A stretch of 64,000 nucleotides of DNA from a bacterium (GTDB lineage: Bacteria; UBP6; UBA1177): NCBI GenBank assembly GCA_017961325.1, contig JAGCXM010000006.1, positions 1 to 64,000 on the forward strand, in the 5' to 3' direction. Below the pieces are notes generated by a model. That model was not told the DNA's origin. It saw only the letters and a program-made list of their open reading frames with translations, and searched no databases. Position numbers and translations under genes: made by a program. Positions 41,721 to 61,302 of the stretch are shown here, piece by piece (position 1 is the stretch's first letter; each line of letters begins with the position of its first letter).

Positions 41721-41898
41721 TTATCTTAAAACGGATCTTACTTCAGACTTCTTCTCAGTAAGGCGGGTTGGATTTATCAATTCAGTTTTCTCTGAAATAC
41801 GGAATGAAATGGAAAAATTAAAAAAAACACTCTTAATAATGATTTTTTTATAAAAATTCTTATAATGCTCCGTTTTTTTGTTTTTGATGGAGAAAAGA

Positions 41899-42699
41899 AT
41901 GGGACTTATTCATCTTAAGGATGTTGTAACTTTGGGGAATGTCGCCATCGGTTTTTTTTCCGCCGTTCTGGCGATAGAAGGTGATATTCAGCAGGCATGT
42001 TATCTGGTGATGGTGGCTTATGTTCTCGATTTTTGCGACGGAATCGTGGCAAGAATCACGAAAATGAGCAATGAATTCGGCAAGGAACTCGATCTTATAG
42101 CAGACCATGTTACTTATGCAGTTTGTCCGGCGTTTGTCGTCTATGCTTTTTACAGAGTTGAAGACGGCAGTTTTCTGAACGCTTTCATCGCTTACTGCAT
42201 GGGTATGGTTCCGCTTGTTTTCGGCTGCATCAGGCACGCGAGAAACGAAGTCTACGACATTGATTTTCCCCGCTTTTTCCTCGGAACTCCGCGTCCGGTA
42301 TCTGCTTTTTATCTTATGAGCCTTATCGGAGCCGGAATGCACCTCAGCAAGTATATCCCTCAGGAATATAATCCGACCTATAAATATTTTCTTATTCCGC
42401 TTTTCATATGGATAGGCTGGAACAATCTTTCGTTCAGACCGTTCCTCAGCCATCACGGGCGCAAATTCAACAAAAAACTTAAATTCTTTATGAGCATTGC
42501 CGTTGTCATGCTTGTTTTGAGCGGTATTGCGACGGCTGTCACCGGAGAGCCGTGGCTTCTCGACTGTCTTCTTTTCCACATGTTGGTTTATACTTTCTTT
42601 ACGCCGGTCTGTTTTGATCCGGGTGATCTTGACGGTTACGAAGATTACGTAAAGGCGAAAAAAGCGGAAATCGCAAAAGATATGCAACCTAAAGGGTAG
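41899..42699 (+). CDS. pssA: CDP-alcohol phosphatidyltransferase (PssA-like)
   Basis: 266 residues from the ATG at 41899 (GGAG 6 bases upstream). The CDP-alcohol phosphotransferase signature is present near residues 50-72: Asp-x2-Asp-Gly-x2-Ala-Arg, then Gly-x3-Asp-x3-Asp (DFCDGIVARI, FGKELDLIAD). About six to eight membrane segments follow. The neighbourhood start GLIHLKDVVTLGN and the short length suggest CDP-diacylglycerol-serine phosphotransferase, but inositol-phosphate or glycerol-phosphate acceptors are possible. The next gene is a nucleotidyltransferase fusion. The enzyme would make a phospholipid headgroup in the inner membrane. Confidence 0.8.
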   Translation: MGLIHLKDVVTLGNVAIGFFSAVLAIEGDIQQACYLVMVAYVLDFCDGIVARITKMSNEFGKELDLIADHVTYAVCPAFVVYAFYRVEDGSFLNAFIAYCMGMVPLVFGCIRHARNEVYDIDFPRFFLGTPRPVSAFYLMSLIGAGMHLSKYIPQEYNPTYKYFLIPLFIWIGWNNLSFRPFLSHHGRKFNKKLKFFMSIAVVMLVLSGIATAVTGEPWLLDCLLFHMLVYTFFTPVCFDPGDLDGYEDYVKAKKAEIAKDMQPKG

Positions 42700-42704
42700 G
42701 GTTT

Positions 42705-44027
42705 ATGATGAAACAAGGCGTTATCCTTGCAAGCGGACTTGGCAGCAGGCTTAACAGTGAAGGCCGTAACGAGCCGAAGCCGCTTATGCCGGTCGGCGGA
42801 ATGGCTTTGATCGAGCGCGTTATCACTTTGATGCAGAATGTCGGCATTGAGAAAATTGTCGTTGTCGTCGGCTACCGCGGCGATCAGATCAGGGAATACA
42901 TAAATAAAAACAATATTCGCGGCGTTGTTTTCGCCGAAAATCCCGAATACAACAAGAAAAACGGCATTTCGCTGCTCCGCGCTCGTGATTTTCTTGACGA
43001 TGCCCCGTTTATGCTGTCGATGTCGGATCATATTTTTTCGGAAAATTTTTTTGCCGATTTTTTGGAAAAGGCAGAGCCGAAACTTGAAAAATATGAAGTT
43101 GTCCTTTCTATCGACAGAAATATCGAAGGAGTTTTTGATCTCGACGATGCGACGAAAGTCGTCACGGAAAACGGTGAAATCACGGCAATCGGCAAAGATC
43201 TGCCCTCTTATGATGCGGTTGATACCGGACTTTTCCTCTGCAAACCCGATATCTTTGCGCGACTTCAGAGTGTTTACGACGAAACAGGGGATGTTTCGAT
43301 TTCCAATGTGATGGGAAGTGTCGCCGCCGACAGAATGTTTGCATGCGCGGAAATGACCGGGCATCTCTGGCAGGATGTAGACACGCCGTCAATGAAAAAC
43401 GAAGCGGAAGAGCGTCTGGTTGACGACTATATTGAAAAAAACCGCTCGACGCACTTTTTTTCAAACCGGTTTTTTATAAAAATCGCTAAAGAGACGGTTC
43501 TTGCGCTGTTTAAGAAGGAACATTTCGACTGGGAGTTTTTTCACACTGCTGTTTTTGTCGTTTCGCTGATAATTACGGCGGTTGCACTTTTTGAAGATTT
43601 GATTCAGCTTTCTGTTCTGCCGCTTTTTTTCACGACTTTTATGTCCTATATCGATAAAATCAGAAAAAATGTCAGGATAACCTGCCTGAAAAACGAAAAT
43701 TTCATTCTTTCGTGGAAATTCGGTTTCATACTTTCGACGCTGCCGGCTGTTCTTGCGGCTTGCGGTACGGTTTTTGTCGGTTTGCCGCTTGTCGTTGTGA
43801 TGTTTGCGGTTGCTCTGGCGAAGCATCTGGGTTTCTTGGATTTTCTGATGTCACAGCGTGCCGAACTTCCTGATGTTGACGAATCTTTGTCACAGACGCT
43901 TCTTGCACCGTCGCTTTTCTGGATGGTTTACTCGGTTGCAGTTTTTGTTCTGCCCGAATGGCTGACCGGTTTTCTTCCCTTCGCATACTTTATTTTTGCA
44001 CCGTGTTTTTATGACGAGAGGGGCTGA
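42705..44027 (+). CDS. nucleotidyltransferase fused to membrane domain
   Basis: 440 residues. Residues 1-~240 are a sugar-nucleotidyltransferase fold: GVILASGLGSRL, EPKPLMPVGGMALIERV, KIVVVVGYRGDQI, then LSMSDHIF as the catalytic Asp motif, and a late WQDVDTP. This half resembles the inositol-1-phosphate cytidylyltransferase part of bifunctional IPCT-DIPPS enzymes. The C-terminal ~190 residues contain about five membrane segments but no visible CDP-alcohol motif; that motif sits in the separate preceding gene. I infer CTP-dependent activation of a phosphorylated polyol for lipid-headgroup synthesis. The identity of the alcohol is not readable. The gene lies 5 bases after pssA and shares 1 base with exbD. 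Confidence 0.7.
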   Translation: MMKQGVILASGLGSRLNSEGRNEPKPLMPVGGMALIERVITLMQNVGIEKIVVVVGYRGDQIREYINKNNIRGVVFAENPEYNKKNGISLLRARDFLDDAPFMLSMSDHIFSENFFADFLEKAEPKLEKYEVVLSIDRNIEGVFDLDDATKVVTENGEITAIGKDLPSYDAVDTGLFLCKPDIFARLQSVYDETGDVSISNVMGSVAADRMFACAEMTGHLWQDVDTPSMKNEAEERLVDDYIEKNRSTHFFSNRFFIKIAKETVLALFKKEHFDWEFFHTAVFVVSLIITAVALFEDLIQLSVLPLFFTTFMSYIDKIRKNVRITCLKNENFILSWKFGFILSTLPAVLAACGTVFVGLPLVVVMFAVALAKHLGFLDFLMSQRAELPDVDESLSQTLLAPSLFWMVYSVAVFVLPEWLTGFLPFAYFIFAPCFYDERG

Positions 44028-44437
44028 TGGAACTCAAAAAGCGGGCAAGCAGGGATTTTTCCATCGACATAAGTTCGCTTGTCGATGTTCTTTTCACGCT
44101 TCTCATTTTCTTTTCGCTTACAAGCACTTTCGTTAAGGAATCTGGTCTGAAGGTCGATCTTCCGAAAGCGAGTTCCGACACTCCGCTCGTTTCAGCTGAA
44201 AAGTTTGAAATCGCCATAAGTTCGGACGGCAGAGTCGCTTTGGGCGGAACCGAAGTTTCGTCAACTGAAGAAATCAGGAAATTCCTTTCAAAATTTGACA
44301 CCGATATGCGTTTAAAATATGTTATGGTCATCAAGGCCGACGTGACTACGCCTCACGGCAAGGTTACTGAGGTTCTTGACATACTGAAGTCTTTGAAATT
44401 CGAGAATATCGCGGTTGCGACGAGGTCGAAAGAATGA
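44027..44437 (+). CDS. ExbD/TolR family protein
   Basis: 136 residues, the usual ExbD/TolR size. A short cytoplasmic start leads into one membrane segment containing the essential Asp: DISSLVDVLFTLLIFFSLTSTF (Asp ~ residue 19). A periplasmic domain with VDLPKASS, EIAISSDGRVALGG and VMVIKADVTTPHG follows. ExbD/TolR uses the proton gradient together with ExbB/TolQ to energise outer membrane processes. No ExbB/TolQ lies next to it, which is unusual. It shares 1 base with the upstream gene and overlaps the FtsB-like gene by 4 bases. Confidence 0.85.
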   Translation: MELKKRASRDFSIDISSLVDVLFTLLIFFSLTSTFVKESGLKVDLPKASSDTPLVSAEKFEIAISSDGRVALGGTEVSSTEEIRKFLSKFDTDMRLKYVMVIKADVTTPHGKVTEVLDILKSLKFENIAVATRSKE

Positions 44438-44712
44438 AAAGAAAGCATGTTCTGTTCGTTTTCGGTGCTGTTTTTCTGATTGTATCAGTTTTTCTGATTT
44501 ACGACACGGTTTCGTCTTACGGCGAAATACGCCGGAATCGTATGAAAATTGAAAAAATCGAGGCAAAACAGCGCGATATAAGCCGCGAAAATGTCAGAAT
44601 CCGCCGCAAAATAGACAGAATTTCTAACGATCCGAGGGCTGCGGAGGAAATTTTGAGATTGAAATATAAAATGTTGCGTAAAGATCAATTCAGGTATGTT
44701 CCGGAAAAATGA
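44434..44712 (+). CDS. FtsB/DivIC-like septum formation protein
   Basis: 92 residues: one membrane segment (~5-25), then a charged coiled coil (~30-65) and the end AAEEILRLKYKMLRKDQFRYVPE, the pattern of FtsB/DivIC bitopic division proteins. These bind FtsL and FtsQ in the divisome. It overlaps exbD by 4 bases and the GGDEF gene by 4 bases. The assignment rests on architecture; other small bitopic coiled-coil proteins look similar. Confidence 0.7.
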   Translation: MKRKHVLFVFGAVFLIVSVFLIYDTVSSYGEIRRNRMKIEKIEAKQRDISRENVRIRRKIDRISNDPRAAEEILRLKYKMLRKDQFRYVPEK

Positions 44713-46691
44713 CAGCTTTATTTGAATTCCGCTTTTTTTGGCATTTTGTCACGCTTGTTTTTTCGCTGATTTCGGTTTATGTCGGTCAAAGCGTGCCGCT
44801 TCAGATTTTTTTATGGAGCGTTTTTGCAGTTTTCGTCATATACAGCTGGTTTGTCGAAAAGAAAAAGTTTCCTTTTCCGTTTTTGTTTTTTCCGGCTTTC
44901 GTTCTTACTGGCGGCGTAGGCGGACCGGTTACGCCTGTTCTTTTTCTCCTGCTTCCTTATTTTCTTAAAAAATACGGGCTTTTTTCTTATGTGATTTTTG
45001 CCGTTTCAGTTTTCGTTCTGATGATATGTTCAGGAAATATTTCTGACGAAGCGGCATTTGCAAGCTACGTTCTGTTCGTTTTTTCAGCTGTCGCGGTCTG
45101 GTTTTTCATCGAAAAGAAGAATTTTTCGTTTTTTATGGAGCCTGTTCCTGCAACACCGCTGAAAATTACTCCGAAAGTAAGTTCTTCTCTGGTCGAGGAT
45201 CCTTTCCGGCCGCTGAAAAAGTATCTGAGCAGGACTAAAAATTTCAACGGAAAGCCGGTTTCGCTGCGTCTCGTCGAGCTTCTGCCTGGCGGAATGGCAA
45301 AAATATACGAAACCGAAAGCGAATTCCGGCAGGAAGGTCTGCTCTACAGAGTCGTTCACGACAAAACTCCGGTCGCGGCCAAGACGCTTCTTGCCGAAAT
45401 CGAAAACATTCCGATGATGCCGGAATACAATTTCAGGATTTATTATCCGCTTTCGCTGCTTGAAAACGGAGATTCTTCATTTTTCGAGCCTGAATACGTT
45501 CTGGTAGTCGATATCGCCATGAAGGAAAAATCTGTCGATAAGGACGAGCTTATTGCCGAATTTGCCGAGATAAGAACCGATGTCGCGGAACAGCTCAAAC
45601 AGTCTGAAACATTCAGTCACATTTCGGTCGAAAAACAGCGCAACGCCGCTTTATACCGCGAAACTTCGAACATCGTTGATTCATTCGAGCACGACGAACT
45701 GCTAAAAGCTGCGGCGCTTGCGATTTTCAATCTTGCGCCCGAATCGAGCGGTGTTTTCGTCGCGGAGAAAAGCGGCGGAGAGGCTTTCAACGGCTACGCT
45801 TTCGGGATAGCTGAAGCGTCAAAGGGAAAGTGGCCTCTTGAAATGACCGATATAAAAGAGATCGCGAAAGCTGAAATTAAGGATCAGCAGTCGGTTCATG
45901 CGATGATGGTATGCGGAAAAATGGATGATTATTTCGAGGCGACCGACGTGAACAAACGGAAAAACGAGCCGCTGTTTCAGTCAGAATTCGACGATTTCAA
46001 CAGAAAAAGCTGCATTTCCATCCGCCTTCTGACTTTTAAAAACGACGTGAAGGGAACGATTTCGGTCCTCACTGATACGCAGAAGGATTTTGAGCTGCTT
46101 AAAGACCATTCCGATTCAATAAGAATGATTTCAAAAGTCGTGACATCAGCTCTTAACAACATAGAATTGTTCAAGAAAATGGAAGAGTTGTCCAATGTTG
46201 ACGGATTAACAGGACTTTACAACAGACGCTGTTTCAACAATATGATCGAGCGTAAGACGAGCGAAGCCGGCAGGATGAAGGTTCCGCTTTCGATGATCAT
46301 GCTCGACATTGACCATTTCAAGAAAGTCAACGATGTCTACGGTCACAAGGCTGGTGACGACGTTATCCGCTTTATTTCTAAAACGATACGGAATTCGATC
46401 AGAAAAGTCGATTTCGCGGCGCGTTACGGCGGTGAGGAATTCGTTATCCTGCTCAACAACACTACCGTTGAATCGGCTGCAAAAATAGCCGAAAAAATCA
46501 GAAATCTGGTGCGCGACGCTTCCGTAAATGCCGACGGAATCATTCTTTCTGTGACTGCTTCATTCGGCGTTTCTTCGTTCCCGGAGCCTTCGATGAGTGC
46601 CGGCGAACTCGTCAAAGACGCCGATACTGCCCTTTACTATTCTAAGGAACACGGCCGCGATCAGGTCAATATTTTCAATCGTGAAATGTAG
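44709..46691 (+). CDS. membrane-anchored diguanylate cyclase (GGDEF)
   Basis: 660 residues. About five membrane segments lie in the first ~140 residues, then a linker and a GAF-like regulatory domain (~310-475) with no clear ligand residues. The GGDEF domain (~500-655) has the active site in the GGEEF form (RYGGEEFVILL). The inhibitory I-site RxxD five residues before it is intact (RKVDFAARY). The protein should make cyclic di-GMP and be product-inhibited. It is the last gene in an operon with lipid and division genes. A 28-base palindrome overlaps its stop. Confidence 0.9.
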   Translation: MTALFEFRFFWHFVTLVFSLISVYVGQSVPLQIFLWSVFAVFVIYSWFVEKKKFPFPFLFFPAFVLTGGVGGPVTPVLFLLLPYFLKKYGLFSYVIFAVSVFVLMICSGNISDEAAFASYVLFVFSAVAVWFFIEKKNFSFFMEPVPATPLKITPKVSSSLVEDPFRPLKKYLSRTKNFNGKPVSLRLVELLPGGMAKIYETESEFRQEGLLYRVVHDKTPVAAKTLLAEIENIPMMPEYNFRIYYPLSLLENGDSSFFEPEYVLVVDIAMKEKSVDKDELIAEFAEIRTDVAEQLKQSETFSHISVEKQRNAALYRETSNIVDSFEHDELLKAAALAIFNLAPESSGVFVAEKSGGEAFNGYAFGIAEASKGKWPLEMTDIKEIAKAEIKDQQSVHAMMVCGKMDDYFEATDVNKRKNEPLFQSEFDDFNRKSCISIRLLTFKNDVKGTISVLTDTQKDFELLKDHSDSIRMISKVVTSALNNIELFKKMEELSNVDGLTGLYNRRCFNNMIERKTSEAGRMKVPLSMIMLDIDHFKKVNDVYGHKAGDDVIRFISKTIRNSIRKVDFAARYGGEEFVILLNNTTVESAAKIAEKIRNLVRDASVNADGIILSVTASFGVSSFPEPSMSAGELVKDADTALYYSKEHGRDQVNIFNREM

Positions 46692-52486: not shown

Positions 52487-53683
52487 TTAAATCAAATTAA
52501 TACATGAACCATCTCTTGAATAACATGAATCATCGGAAATTTCGGTGTCTCCGGAATCTTCGAAATCTTCATTATCTGAATCTCCATTATCGGGAACTTC
52601 ATCATCATCTCCGTAATCATCGCCAGAATCTCCTGAATCATCATCTGAATCAGCGGAATCACCTGAATCATTTTCATCTTTTACATAAGGATTTTCGTCA
52701 CACGCATCGCCGATTCCGTCACCGTCGGTATCGAGTTGTGAAACATTGTATATTTCCTGACAGTTGTCAACGCAATTAGGAACTCCGTCACCGTCATTGT
52801 CGGTTTCTGCAACTCCGCAGCCGCATATTCCTTCAGAAATTGTTTTGCCGGCATCATCCGGACAAATGTCGCAGAGATCGCCGACACCGTCACCGTCAGC
52901 ATCTTCCTGAAGCGGATTGGTATCATTCGGACAGTTGTCTTCGTTGTTTTTAACTCCGTCGCCGTCCAAGTCTTCGTCGCACGCGTCGCCGATTCCGTCG
53001 CTGTCAAGGTCAGGCTGTCTGCCGGACGAAAAAATAGAAGCTCCTTCTTTCGGATTGGCGATATTCGGGCAGTTGTCTTCAACGTTTTTCACTCCGTCTC
53101 CGTCAATATCGTCGTCGCATGCATCGCCTTGGCCGTTGCCGTCCGAATCGGTCTGATCCTTGTTTGCATCGAGAGGACAGTTGTCAATACAGTCGGGAAT
53201 CGTATCCTTATCGGTGTCAAGTTCGCTTTCCGCAATTCCGCAGCCGCAGATTCCGGGTTCAGCCTTGTCTGGATCTTCGGGGCAGCCGTCTTCTTCGTCA
53301 ATTACGCCGTCGCCGTCTCTGTCTATAGGAATATCTTCGTCGTTTTCGTTTTCCTCATCTTCCTCGTTGTCTCTGTCCGGACGATCTCCGTCGCGGTCTG
53401 GACGCTCGTTATTTTCGGGATCTTCCTCGTCTTCTCCACCCCATCCGTCTTCTTCTCCGTCGTTTTCATTGCCGTTGTCGGGGCGTTCCGGTCTTTCATC
53501 ATCTACGTCTTCATTTTCACCGTCGCTGTCGCCGGCCGTTTCTGAATCGTCTGTTCCTGAAATGTCGTCTTTTGTCTCGCTTTCCTCCGTGAAAGAATCC
53601 TTGTCTGCGATTCTTTCAAGGGTTTCGTTGCAGGCAGCAAGGAAAAAAACGAAAGAAATTGCCAAAATTGTTGCTCTTTTCAT
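52487..53683 (-). CDS. thrombospondin type 3 repeat lipoprotein with acidic stalk
   Basis: 398 residues. The lipobox is LAAC (Cys ~18). A very acidic stalk (~20-135; Asp/Glu/Asn/Gly/Pro/Arg-rich) precedes calcium-binding thrombospondin type 3 repeats (~125-335). These include two almost identical units [15 protein letters not shown] and [15 protein letters not shown], plus GICGCG pairs followed by [14 protein letters not shown]-type units. A second acidic Asp/Ser tail with a final CYS..GSC pair closes the protein. Such proteins are surface-exposed and calcium-binding, with adhesion or structural roles. It has a strong promoter with divergent serA. Confidence 0.85.
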
Positions 53684-57423: not shown

Positions 57424-59019
57424 ATGACAAAAACCATGCCGTTTTCCACCGTTTTCAGCACTAAATTTTTATTTTTTCTTCTCTTTTTTGCAATAATTTT
57501 TCTTTTTTCAGGCTGCGGCGGCAGCACAAAACCTGAACCTGTTTCCAATACCGATGAAGATTCGACCGATGCGGACTGTGACATGGATGAGGAAGATAGT
57601 GACGAAGATGAAGAAATAGAAGACGAGGAAGAAAACGATACGGAAGCAGATTCTAAACCTGACAAAGATACTGACTCGGAAAAAGCAGATACCGATTCCG
57701 ATGCCGACAACGATTCAGGCAAACCTACACGCACAGAATGCCGCAAGGTTGGCGGAACATGGGACGAATCTGACAAAAAATGCTACAAACGAGTTCAGTG
57801 TAACGAAAAACCTGAAAATTCCCTCTGGAATACAGCTATATATTATTACCAGTACTACGAAAAAGGTGAATGGAGCGAACCTATAGCAACTGAATACAAC
57901 GAGGAAACAGGAGCTTGCCACTTTATATGTATAAAAAATTATTTCTGGGACGGTGAAGAGTGTAAAAACCTCTGTGATTCTGATCCTTGCGCTGCAGTCG
58001 GACATTCAGACGGCACCTGCACTACTACAACTCCATATATTTATTCCTGCGGATGCGATGACGGATACACTTGGAATGAAGAAAAGTGCAAAGAAATCAC
58101 CTCAAAACTTAGCCTTGGCAACATCTGCTCCTGCCAGTCGGAATGTTACACGGATGTTGCCCAGAAAGAGAGTGCACGTTGTCCCGCCGAAGGTTTTAAT
58201 TTTTTCGGACAGGATGCCATAAATGCCGCTTTAGGAACCTGTGTCCGCAAAAATTATTCAATAAAGGAAACCGGTATCGAAAACGAAAACATCATTATTG
58301 ACAAAAATCTGAAACTTGAGTGGCAGCAGACAATACCTACAGAAATATACACTTGGAAGGACGCTGTCTATTACTGCGAAAACCTTGAATACGGAGGATA
58401 CGATGACTGGAGACTTCCGACACCGAAAGAACTTTTCGCCAACATTGACTATGGACGCTGCGATCCTGAAATCACCGGAAACTATTTCAAGGAACCAAAA
58501 ACTTTCTGGACTTCGAAACTTTATGCCGGCAATCCGAATCAGGTATGGCACGGGAATTTCGGTTCAGGAGACATGTTCTATGATGCAGTAAGCAAAAAAC
58601 GCGAAGTCCGCTGTGTCCGCGGAGAAACAATTCAGGAAGACATTTTTGTTGTTTCAACACTGGACGGTGATGAAATCGTAACCGACACTGCTACAGGCTT
58701 AATCTGGCAGAAAGAACATGCTGCCGGAAAAAGATGGAAAGAAGCTCTCGAATACTGCGAAAATCTGACTTACGCAGGATACTCTGACTGGAGACTTCCG
58801 AACATAAACGAACTTGTATCTCTTTCAAATTACGACAAATACAGCCCGGCATCCGATTTTCCTGATATACCCCTGGAGTATTTCTGGTCTTCCACAACAA
58901 AAATGACAACAAGTGAGTATTCATACAGCGGCCATGTTGCCTGGACTGTTTTATTTTATACAGCTGCAGTGATTTCAGAAAACAAAGATATATTTTATTA
59001 TGCAAAGTGTGTGAGATAG
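57424..59019 (+). CDS. DUF1566 lipoprotein with acidic stalk
   Basis: 531 residues. A long hydrophobic signal peptide ends in the lipobox FSGC (Cys ~31). An acidic stalk follows (~40-100, runs of Asp/Glu with Ser/Thr). A Cys-containing EGF-like part lies at ~180-225. Two DUF1566 (Lcl-type) domains follow: the first has LEWQQTIP and DAVYYCENLEYGGYDDWRLP; the second has LIWQKEH, EALEYCENLTYAGYSDWRLP and an ending YYAKCVR. The family is common in uncultured anaerobes and its ligand is unknown. It is likely surface-exposed. GAGG precedes the ATG, and a paralogue follows 9 bases later. Confidence 0.82.
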   Translation: MTKTMPFSTVFSTKFLFFLLFFAIIFLFSGCGGSTKPEPVSNTDEDSTDADCDMDEEDSDEDEEIEDEEENDTEADSKPDKDTDSEKADTDSDADNDSGKPTRTECRKVGGTWDESDKKCYKRVQCNEKPENSLWNTAIYYYQYYEKGEWSEPIATEYNEETGACHFICIKNYFWDGEECKNLCDSDPCAAVGHSDGTCTTTTPYIYSCGCDDGYTWNEEKCKEITSKLSLGNICSCQSECYTDVAQKESARCPAEGFNFFGQDAINAALGTCVRKNYSIKETGIENENIIIDKNLKLEWQQTIPTEIYTWKDAVYYCENLEYGGYDDWRLPTPKELFANIDYGRCDPEITGNYFKEPKTFWTSKLYAGNPNQVWHGNFGSGDMFYDAVSKKREVRCVRGETIQEDIFVVSTLDGDEIVTDTATGLIWQKEHAAGKRWKEALEYCENLTYAGYSDWRLPNINELVSLSNYDKYSPASDFPDIPLEYFWSSTTKMTTSEYSYSGHVAWTVLFYTAAVISENKDIFYYAKCVR

Positions 59020-59028
59020 GAGGCTGAT

Positions 59029-61302
59029 ATGAAAATAATTTTTACAGCATTTCTTATTTTTCTCTTTATCTCTTGCAACACCAACGCAAAACACATTACA
59101 GACAACGATCCTTCGGCTGAAAATCCTGATACTGACGACACTGACGATATTGAGAATGCGGATTATGACACAGGCTTGGAATCTGATAAGGATATTGAAA
59201 CCATCGAAAACGACGACGATATAGAACATGATGAGGATACAGAAATCACTGATGAAGACGACCAAAAACCTGACGAAGACGAGGAAAATACTGAAGATGA
59301 AGATATTAAACCTTTCATAGATCCCTGTCTTGAAGAACCATGCAAAAATGTCGAAAATTCCACCGGAGAATGCCTGACAAAAGGCAGAAAAGGTGAATAT
59401 CTCTGCGTTTGTAATGAAAATTATGTCTGGTTTCCGAACAAAAAAATCTGCGAGCCGGAAAACTCTTTTAAAGGTTTGTCGTGCACCGGTCAGACAAAAT
59501 GCTACGACAACGAAAAAGAGATCCCCTGCCCCGAAGAGGGCGAACCTTTCTTCGGTCAGGATGCGAACTATGCTGAAAAAAGACTGTGTTTTCCGCAGAA
59601 TTTCACAATAAAAAACTACGGAACCGGCAGAACAGTCATTGATAACAATTCCGGACTGGAATGGCTTCCGGAAATTGTAAAAAGTCAAACATCATCCCCT
59701 CAGGCCTACATTGACAATCCCGCTTTTGAAGAATATTTAGACTGGAGAAACGCAAACAGCTGGGATTTGAATTCAATAATCGACAGCGGAACATTTGCTC
59801 CGACTATAAACGAGGCATATTTCCAAGATGCATCTCCTATAGAAATCACTACTGGCTATGGTTTGTATCAGTGTTATGGTTACAAGTCACCGCCGGCAGG
59901 ACCACCGCCAGGACAATATGATTTCTGCTATTATATATCAGGAATTGATTTCAGTACTGGGCTCACATTCTCAAACACTTACGGTGAAAATGGAAATACA
60001 ATGCCGGCAGAAGTGAACTTATACACAGTAAGAGATACTTCGGAAAAAACCGGCACATGCTTCATCGCGCTGCAATCGGATGAGCACAAAATTGTCACAT
60101 TTTTTCCGCAAAGGCTTCTTGTCAGCGTTCCGGAATTAGGTAAAAACTGGGAAGAGTCTCTTGAATACTGCGAAAATCTGACTTATGCAGGCATTTCAGA
60201 CTGGCGGCTTCCCAACAGAAACGAAGCTTATTTTTCAGTATCGGCAACTGCTGAGTTCATTGATGTCTTAAATTCCTGGGATGCGGAATATTTCCGTCCG
60301 TGGTGGACAGCAACCTCTTATGTTGATGATCCTACAAAAGCTATAAGATATTTTTATTTAAGTAATAACTCCATAAGTGCCAACCTGAAAACAGAAACAG
60401 GAAATGTAATGTGCGTCGCATTTGATCCATGTCCAGAAAGTGAAATATGGAACGGAACAGAATGCATTTCAACCGAAAAAATTGTCATTAAAGAGGGAGA
60501 ATGCGGCTGCAGTGCCGGTTATGCCTTGGAAAAATCGCAGTGTGTTAAAATATGTGACGATGATTTATGCAAAGACAAAACACATTCGACAGGACTTTGC
60601 CTTAACGTGCAGGAAAAAGACGGAATAGAAAATGTCTCATGCCAGTGCGAGGAAAACTATTTCCTGAATGAAAATTTCGAGTGCGTGAACCCGTGCGACG
60701 CCGCTCCTTGCTTAGAAAGAGAAAATTCGGACGGATCTTGTGCTCCGACAGGAGTTTCCAGTTTCACATGCGGATGCAAAAAAGGATACTATCCCAAATC
60801 AAACCAATGTGTTGCCGTCAATTCAAACAACTGCTTCATCGATTATAGCGACAATGCATGCGTCAACGATGTCGCCGGCATAATGTGGTCTTCAACTTCC
60901 TCCCCCATCGACCCTCTCACATCCACTTCTATCCAGCTTCTGAGATGGTCTGAAGCAAAAAAATACTGCGAAAATCTGGAGGAAGCGGGATACACCGACT
61001 GGAGACTACCGAAAGTTGAAGAACTGTGGACTTTCGCGAAATCATGCAACAACATTCCGAAAGAATCATGCGAAGCGAGCGAAAAAAACTGTTGCCTTTC
61101 TGAAGAATGCATATCGCAGTGCAGATGTAAAACCGATCTCGAAAATGACGGTGTTTATCCCTATAACGCTCTATGGTCTTCATCTTTCAAATCAGACGAT
61201 ACTGACAAAGTCATCATGCTTTACAGCTATTATTATGTTCTTGAATTCCGTAATATAAAGAAAGATTTCGGTTTAGTCAAATGCGTCAGGAATATTGAGT
61301 GA
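59029..61302 (+). CDS. large DUF1566/EGF-like lipoprotein with acidic stalk
   Basis: 757 residues. The lipobox is FISC (Cys ~16), then an acidic stalk (~20-95). EGF-like segments lie near ~100-140 and ~490-590 (CDDDLCKDKTHSTGLC, CDAAPCLERENSDGSC, FTCGCKKGYYPKSNQC). DUF1566-like regions lie at ~190-460 (NWEESLEYCENLTYAGISDWRLP) and ~600-755 (AKKYCENLEEAGYTDWRLP, ending in VKCVRN). It is a larger relative of the preceding protein, 9 bases apart, so tandem duplication followed by expansion is likely. AGGAGG precedes the ATG. Function unknown; a surface location is inferred. Confidence 0.82.
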   Translation: MKIIFTAFLIFLFISCNTNAKHITDNDPSAENPDTDDTDDIENADYDTGLESDKDIETIENDDDIEHDEDTEITDEDDQKPDEDEENTEDEDIKPFIDPCLEEPCKNVENSTGECLTKGRKGEYLCVCNENYVWFPNKKICEPENSFKGLSCTGQTKCYDNEKEIPCPEEGEPFFGQDANYAEKRLCFPQNFTIKNYGTGRTVIDNNSGLEWLPEIVKSQTSSPQAYIDNPAFEEYLDWRNANSWDLNSIIDSGTFAPTINEAYFQDASPIEITTGYGLYQCYGYKSPPAGPPPGQYDFCYYISGIDFSTGLTFSNTYGENGNTMPAEVNLYTVRDTSEKTGTCFIALQSDEHKIVTFFPQRLLVSVPELGKNWEESLEYCENLTYAGISDWRLPNRNEAYFSVSATAEFIDVLNSWDAEYFRPWWTATSYVDDPTKAIRYFYLSNNSISANLKTETGNVMCVAFDPCPESEIWNGTECISTEKIVIKEGECGCSAGYALEKSQCVKICDDDLCKDKTHSTGLCLNVQEKDGIENVSCQCEENYFLNENFECVNPCDAAPCLERENSDGSCAPTGVSSFTCGCKKGYYPKSNQCVAVNSNNCFIDYSDNACVNDVAGIMWSSTSSPIDPLTSTSIQLLRWSEAKKYCENLEEAGYTDWRLPKVEELWTFAKSCNNIPKESCEASEKNCCLSEECISQCRCKTDLENDGVYPYNALWSSSFKSDDTDKVIMLYSYYYVLEFRNIKKDFGLVKCVRNIE

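Follow-up and report, generated by a model that had tools for sequence, protein, structure and literature searches.

In the 64,000-nucleotide bacterial stretch analysed here (the window), the gene at 42705-44027 encodes a protein like CTP:inositol-1-phosphate cytidylyltransferase (IPCT) fused to a multi-helix membrane domain without the CDP-alcohol motif, and a separate CDP-alcohol phosphotransferase gene that carries this motif intact lies directly upstream. We lean, if only somewhat, towards the reading that the membrane-tethered IPCT and a separate transferase together make a phosphatidylinositol-type lipid by way of CDP-inositol. The features on which the argument turns are the following.

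41902-42699, forward strand: CDP-alcohol phosphotransferase of PssA descent, 265 amino acids from the ATG at 41902; a TTG at 41878 is also possible.
42028-42105, forward strand: intact CDP-alcohol catalytic motif of this transferase, D..DG..AR........G...D...D, reading DFCDGIVARITKMSNEFGKELDLIAD.
42094-42096, forward strand: Leu65 codon of the transferase, replacing the serine-contacting Ser63 of M. jannaschii phosphatidylserine synthase (PSS) by alignment.
42244-42246, forward strand: Asn115 codon of the transferase, replacing the serine-contacting Phe105 of M. jannaschii PSS by alignment.
42705-44027, forward strand: IPCT-like cytidylyltransferase fused to a multi-helix membrane domain, 440 amino acids from an ATG start.
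42705-43424, forward strand: N-domain, residues 1-240, predicted CTP:inositol-1-phosphate cytidylyltransferase with invariant catalytic residues.
43425-44024, forward strand: C-domain, residues 241-440, membrane domain without a CDP-alcohol motif, its predicted fold nearest to CDP-alcohol phosphotransferases.

The fused gene is a genuine conserved gene and not a chance open reading frame, because its N-domain is strongly conserved across 16 aligned orthologs and the gene is present in each of the 20 genomes in families f1 and f2 (the window genome is one of them); it occurs in 0 of the 8 genomes of families f3 and f4 of the same phylum. We use UBP6 as a label for the window lineage and its relatives, inferred from the nearest named records. 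The window genome (G000, with the window on contig C33) measures 2.35 Mb, and many of the 20 closest named loci (L038-L057) come from ruminant-gut MAGs.

Pfam recognises a nucleotidyltransferase at residues 5-229 of the 440-residue protein (PF12804, 7.7e-15; PF00483, 3.3e-12), with an IspD match at 0.028 that falls below the IspD cut-off, and returned zero matches for the C-terminal half. In NCBIfam the lead goes to NF041135, a model for the IPCT/DIPPS of Thermococcales (1.9e-46, residues 4-297), at 158.9 bits, short of the 580-bit cut-off of a model that is, by its name, Thermococcales-specific; the next model scores 74.4. Against PDB sequences the protein reaches 96.5 bits with the A. fulgidus IPCT-DIPPS, 92.1 with IPCT and 73.8 with T. 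maritima IPCT, and outside the IPCTs 43 with MurU, 39.6 with PntC and 38.5 with LicC. The N-domain is thus nearer to IPCTs than to other nucleotidyltransferases by score, and it is nearer by fold as well. The clustering with nucleotide-sugar enzymes of which the earlier note had warned was not seen, the IPCT matches leading the sugar enzymes by 158.9 to 74.4 in NCBIfam and by 96.5 to 43 bits in PDB. The nucleotidyltransferase signature, the catalytic R15, K25 and D108, and Lys151 are all present in the N-domain, and R15, K25, D108, K151, D224 and D226 are invariant in the aligned UBP6 orthologs (16- and 18-row alignments); catalytic roles for such Arg, Lys and Asp residues in related nucleotidyltransferases are described in the available parts of PMC6697681 and PMC12275187. 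The earlier note had likened the N-terminal half to the cytidylyltransferase half of IPCT-DIPPS enzymes, a likeness that sequence models, fold and catalytic residues all bear out. It had also placed the CDP-alcohol motif in the separate preceding gene and seen no catalytic motif in the membrane half, and here too it was right, since the full motif lies in 41902-42699 and both Pfam and motif scans of relatives find none in the C-domain.

The gene company of the N-domain points to the same substrate. Myo-inositol-1-phosphate synthase (MIPS) makes inositol-1-phosphate from glucose-6-phosphate, and the window genome encodes a MIPS above both Pfam cut-offs (PF07994, 289.8 bits; PF01658, 111.3 bits) on a different contig from the fused gene. 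When the full protein was searched against 28 genomes, MIPS was found in 19 of the 20 IPCT-bearing genomes, the exception being 59% complete, versus 0 of the 8 without IPCT in the same phylum, a pattern that may reflect one or two events on the tree rather than 28 independent points because the genomes are related by descent. The MIPS gene (L090:7691-9016, reverse strand) is 93-100% identical over matched stretches within the genus, compared with 52-82% for IPCT, as would fit either exceptionally strong constraint or an exchange in the recent past.

When 386 genomes were searched with the profile (E <= 1e-30), 45 further matches turned up outside UBP6, in 41 genomes, and all 45 were inspected with their flanks. 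In 29 of them the protein continues into a CDP-alcohol phosphotransferase domain (the fused relatives), and in 16 it does not; five of the 29 (L190, L193-L195 and L058, the last on the contig of L216) belong to the eight proteins of the DIPPS profile and match by construction. The IPCT of L188 is a single-domain gene, part of the 31-row profile and outside the 29 fused proteins. A same-strand MIPS gene lies within 1.2 kb of 17 of the 45 (15 of the 29 fused, 2 of the 16 single), a count limited by the many flanks that end at contig ends, and in 13 of these 17 the genes touch or lie at most 12 bases apart. The neighbour profiles for MIPS were built from picks made by eye, and all 17 were then confirmed above the PF01658 cut-off.

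Taken with the scores, this makes it very likely, as judged from sequence and gene context, that the N-domain makes CDP-inositol from CTP and inositol-1-phosphate. The match to IPCT alone is no proof of inositol, because CpgD, which makes CDP-glycerate, likewise has T. maritima IPCT as its best structural match (PMC12275187, in the part available), and the available parts of PMC6697681 and PMC12275187 present the nucleotidyltransferase family as diverse in substrate. The cytidylyltransferase might accordingly activate another phospho-alcohol (2-aminoethylphosphonate, phosphocholine, phosphoglycerate or glycerol phosphate), as PntC, LicC and CpgD do. Three Myxococcota relatives that, like PntC-AEPT, carry a fused class-V aminotransferase give this alternative some substance, and the N-domain tree is compatible with it. 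In the tree of 34 N-domains, which contains two long branches and two composition flags and covers IPCTs other than the archaeal ones, UBP6 forms one clade (100/99) that lies between the fused IPCTs and a branch of aminotransferase-fused and single-domain proteins, with the deep fork at 90/90. The phylogeny proposed in the earlier note thus, for the N-domain, groups UBP6 as a single clade without fixing its side of the fork, and the substrate call rests on scores and gene company rather than on the tree.

We nevertheless regard activation of another phospho-alcohol as quite unlikely, given the wide lead of the IPCT scores and the co-distribution of MIPS with the fused gene. The search for PEP mutase gave nothing in the window genome, and matches over the cut-off in 3 of 21 genomes. 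The AEP-contacting Glu104 of PntC aligns with Met106 of the N-domain, a Met in 18 of 18 UBP6 rows (the comparison was made at Glu104, one of two contacts, the other being Glu196). Met106 is common to all 63 aligned rows, the three aminotransferase fusions included, and because of this it argues against the T. denticola PntC contact and not by itself for inositol. Glu104 has been equated with LicC Asp105 in the available part of PMC6697681; the HMMER alignment of LicC puts its Asp one column earlier, on Ser105, so that the LicC side is unsure, and residue 105 is uninformative as a substrate discriminator. The phosphonate (PntC) function was rejected as first choice, PEP mutase not being found in the window genome and Glu104 being replaced by Met.

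The membrane C-domain is likely, on structure prediction, to be a decayed DIPPS-type CDP-alcohol phosphotransferase domain. The full CDP-alcohol motif is missing from the IPCT frame in all 19 relatives' loci scanned (L009-L027, two of them truncated), and the core D..[DEN]G is missing from 17 of the 18 aligned C-domains; the sole core match, DNVNG in L053, comes without the remainder of the motif. Among the fused non-UBP6 relatives, 26 of 29 retain all four catalytic Asp residues. In L234, L241 and L249, one Asp is changed or the pattern is missing, and in L222 and L226, both fused IPCT-DIPPS relatives, the motif Arg has become Val with the four Asp retained.

For the full protein the AlphaFold model (pLDDT 85.9, pTM 0.82) has as its top Foldseek match 4mnd, the A. 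fulgidus IPCT-DIPPS (E 7e-20, TM 0.64 by query), and VIA aligns 392 residues (2-436) to it at Z 29.1 and rmsd 4.4. Because the N-domain could carry much of this match, the C-domain was also folded alone (pLDDT 81.0, pTM 0.79). Foldseek returned nothing significant for the isolated domain, with PSS 7pow in third place (E 1.3, probability 0.51). Among the families listed in its VIA table, the top four matches are all CDP-alcohol phosphotransferases at Z 8.9, 7.3, 6.8 and 6.5, in a range below about 13 where a common helical-bundle arrangement can account for the score; 4mnd is matched at Z 8.9 over 186 aligned residues (rmsd 4.8), and lower rows hold rhodopsins at 5.3 and PSS at 5.0. Structure prediction of the membrane half, as the earlier note had proposed, thus places CDP-alcohol phosphotransferases at the head of the VIA list and gives no significant Foldseek match for the isolated domain.

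Sequence comparison of the C-domain with DIPPS was negative throughout. In the alignment of the family profile with 4mnd, which extends across the DIPPS part, non-catalytic residues stand opposite the DGCDGEIAR stretch; the best score against the DIPPS HMM was 2.4 bits in 18 rows versus 4.6 among shuffled rows; hhalign gave probabilities of 0.2 to 1.1 percent; and neither a PDB profile search nor Pfam found the CDP-alcohol family in the C-domain. Sequence homology between the C-domain and DIPPS was consequently dropped as an argument, hhalign and HMM being negative and shuffled controls equally high. The absence of any sequence signal to DIPPS and the sub-significant Foldseek result for the isolated domain would both be expected if an IPCT had independently acquired an unrelated multi-helix membrane anchor. 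Such an origin is possible though doubtful in our view, as the C-domain shares its place and a similar length with the DIPPS domain, the match to 4mnd runs over the full length, and CDP-alcohol phosphotransferases head the VIA list for the isolated domain.

The first candidate for the transfer step is the adjacent gene, which ends 5 bases before the fused gene begins. D..DG..AR........G...D...D is the CDP-alcohol phosphotransferase motif, and the adjacent gene holds it in full. Its best NCBIfam model is PssA TIGR00473 at 85.3 bits, below the cut-off of 107, which the canonical PssA of the window genome also misses at 91.8 bits, and the only two PDB sequences it matches at E <= 1 are both PSS (7b1k, 7pow). 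These matches are what a plain second phosphatidylserine synthase would give, its proximity to the cytidylyltransferase then being a coincidence of operon order.

The serine-binding residues tell against this. In M. jannaschii PSS the residues that touch serine are Asp62, Ser63, Asp66 and Phe105, according to the available part of PMC8633023; Ala59, also named at the serine site in a figure legend there, varies in both of the groups compared below and was left unused. All 24 PssA-type rows have Ser at the Ser63 place and Phe or Tyr at the Phe105 place, whereas both of these contacts are altered in all 16 IPCT-linked rows, with Leu, Val or Thr at the first and Asn at the second. Three f4 homologs (Asn and Phe) were counted in neither group, and L151 (the same gene as L141) and L152 (a duplicate of L187) were dropped. 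Six genes missed by the motif pattern stand outside this alignment, namely L132, L140, L142 and the f3 genes L147, L149 and L150. The first three were read separately: L132 follows the IPCT-linked pattern, L140 (under the handle L054) carries Val and Asn, and the f2 partner transferase L142 (under the handle L192) carries Asn in both positions. Canonical PssA is present alongside the adjacent transferase in the same genomes, and Psd in 25 of 28, so that phosphatidylethanolamine need not depend on the adjacent transferase. Its place is kept as well: in all 19 genomes compared, a same-strand ortholog lies directly upstream of the fused gene (the two matches are about 300 bases apart in G019 and fewer than 25 in every other genome), an adjacency retained into a second family; G018 is outside this comparison and has the identical gene order at its locus, L053. 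With its serine contacts changed, a canonical PssA in the same genomes and its position maintained, a plain second phosphatidylserine synthase is distinctly improbable.

A changed serine pocket does not in itself make CDP-inositol the substrate. Homologs of the adjacent transferase occur in f4 (33-41%) without IPCT, and at two Myxococcota loci a homolog adjoins an AF2299-like transferase, with a fusion of cytidylyltransferase and class-V aminotransferase nearby; the substrate of the adjacent transferase therefore need not be CDP-inositol. By its sequence, the adjacent transferase belongs to a PssA-derived subfamily that twice accompanies headgroup-activating enzymes. The Myxococcota loci (L062:3707-8870 and L071:2407-7595), where the PssA-like enzyme has Asn at the Ser63 place and the aminotransferase fusion lies farther on, form a possible phosphonolipid cluster.

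The adjacent gene is also not the sole candidate, because an AIPS-like CDP-alcohol phosphotransferase on contig C43 of the window genome (L092:5488-6294, reverse strand) is equally co-distributed, being found in 19 of 20 IPCT genomes (two of the 19 matches run through one stop codon) versus 0 of 8 others. The window genome further encodes two AF2299-like proteins on contigs C6 and C21 (L088:8246-9442, forward strand, and L089:10786-12021, reverse strand), which carry the CDP-alcohol motif and match AF2299/DIPPS, and in whose N-terminal halves Pfam found no nucleotidyltransferase. L092 or either AF2299-like protein could use CDP-inositol, and in another phylum the L188 locus has MIPS, a standalone IPCT and an AF2299-like gene in a row. 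CDP-inositol might then be made and feed soluble di-myo-inositol-phosphate, or an inositol lipid made through one of these three transferases instead of the adjacent one. We consider this rather unlikely, since the direct adjacency (19/19) favours the PssA-like gene, the AF2299-like proteins are not fixed partners (L088 orthologs in 9 of 28 genomes at >=68% identity, L089 orthologs in 8 of 28 at >=44%), and L092 has, by eye, Val in place of the Arg of the M. tuberculosis PIP synthase KARAE stretch. The idea of the AF2299-like proteins as obligate partners, with reciprocal loss leaving complementary halves, was dropped on account of their patchy occurrence in the clade. The L092 gene adjoins FtsX-permease, ABC and Omp85 genes that resemble LolC, LolD and BamA. 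A 700-residue protein at L191:5740-7839 joins three domains in a single chain, a nucleotidyltransferase, a CDP-alcohol phosphotransferase and a HAD hydrolase, and so resembles the Bacteroidetes alternative inositol-lipid gene set.

Downstream of the fused gene the order of the conserved block is as follows.

44027-44437, forward strand: ExbD/TolR-like gene, next in the block (Pfam, relatives' loci).
44434-44712, forward strand: small DivIC/FtsL-like gene (28.1 bits, just below the Pfam cut-off of 28.9).
44709-46691, forward strand: GGDEF protein, final gene of the block (family search, relatives' loci).

ExbD is present at 17 of the 20 named loci, and the other three are contig ends or a fragment. 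L049 and L055 stop within the fused gene, and L056 is a 6-kb contig with the N-domain only, its neighbours absent. These three genes (window 44027-46691) accompany the gene pair across families, which hints at a link to envelope or division. Elsewhere in the window, the proteins encoded at 52487-53683 and 57424-61302 show, by eye, extended Asp/Glu-rich tracts close to the N-terminus and, in some cases, Cys-rich repeats.

Set against known systems, the fused protein shares its IPCT N-domain and catalytic residues with the A. fulgidus IPCT-DIPPS (4mnd) and the Thermococcales proteins (NF041135), and with 4mnd also a membrane domain in the same place and a whole-length fold match. It differs in that this domain has neither the CDP-alcohol motif nor detectable sequence similarity and that the motif-bearing transferase is a separate gene. 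AF2299-type proteins (4o6m) have the same plan of a cytidylyltransferase-like N-domain and a CDP-alcohol phosphotransferase C-domain; in the window protein, by contrast, the N-domain looks active by sequence and the C-domain lacks the motif, while the two AF2299-like proteins of the window genome show the reverse. With PssA (7b1k, 7pow) the adjacent transferase has the CDP-alcohol motif and overall sequence family in common, and it differs in the Leu and Asn that replace the Ser63 and Phe105 contacts. PntC, PntC-AEPT (6pd1), LicC (1jyk) and CpgD share the nucleotidyltransferase superfamily and the catalytic Arg and Lys, PntC standing apart by the Glu104 headgroup contact, which is Met here, and by PEP mutase, which was not found in the window genome.

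The closest functional parallel is a CDP-inositol route to inositol phospholipids, reportedly described by Jorge et al. in 2015 in the thermophile Rhodothermus marinus. A CDP-inositol route to lipid has also been proposed for some Bacteroidetes, with genes for MIPS, a nucleotidyltransferase, a CDP-alcohol phosphotransferase and HAD (PMC9246714 and PMC10191378, in the parts available). The window system, predicted from genes, has in common with these a MIPS, a nucleotidyltransferase that uses CTP and a CDP-alcohol phosphotransferase, CDP-inositol being the putative headgroup donor. The three genes co-occur in the genomes and are not all clustered: unlike the Bacteroidetes cluster, the conserved block holds no HAD gene and MIPS is encoded elsewhere. 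The window IPCT also differs in being fused to a motif-less membrane domain, and the transferase in being of PssA descent. Among the matches listed from PMC-licensed papers, this gene arrangement was not found.

In the pathway that we propose, MIPS, encoded elsewhere in the genome, would supply inositol-1-phosphate from glucose-6-phosphate, and the N-domain would couple it with CTP, yielding CDP-inositol and releasing pyrophosphate. The C-domain would have lost its site for metal and nucleotide and may serve as an anchor or docking surface. A separate motif-bearing CDP-alcohol phosphotransferase, for which the adjacent PssA-derived gene with its changed serine contacts is the first candidate, would then transfer the phosphoinositol of CDP-inositol onto diacylglycerol or a related lipid alcohol, so that the product would be a phosphatidylinositol-type lipid. 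The phosphoinositol headgroup guessed at in the earlier note gains support from the MIPS co-distribution, the MIPS-adjoining relatives, the 4mnd match and the altered serine contacts; the lipid itself we infer. More tentatively, it is possible, though less likely than not, that a bifunctional IPCT-DIPPS was split, that its transferase half became a dead docking domain, and that a duplicated PssA without its serine pocket was recruited as CDP-inositol:diacylglycerol phosphotransferase.

Inositol lipids are rare in bacteria and important in gut ecosystems, as stated in the available part of PMC9246714. If the pathway is as proposed, an uncultured phylum would activate the headgroup, not the lipid, to make inositol lipids, using an enzyme that has its second catalytic domain switched off and a remodelled phosphatidylserine synthase as partner. 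A split IPCT-DIPPS together with a recruited PssA would represent a new origin of phosphatidylinositol synthesis, and the fused protein would mirror the AF2299-like proteins, in which the transferase persists and the cytidylyltransferase has been lost. Because the system is small, comprising two adjacent genes and MIPS, and can be rebuilt in E. coli, the poorly characterised CDP-inositol route would become directly testable.
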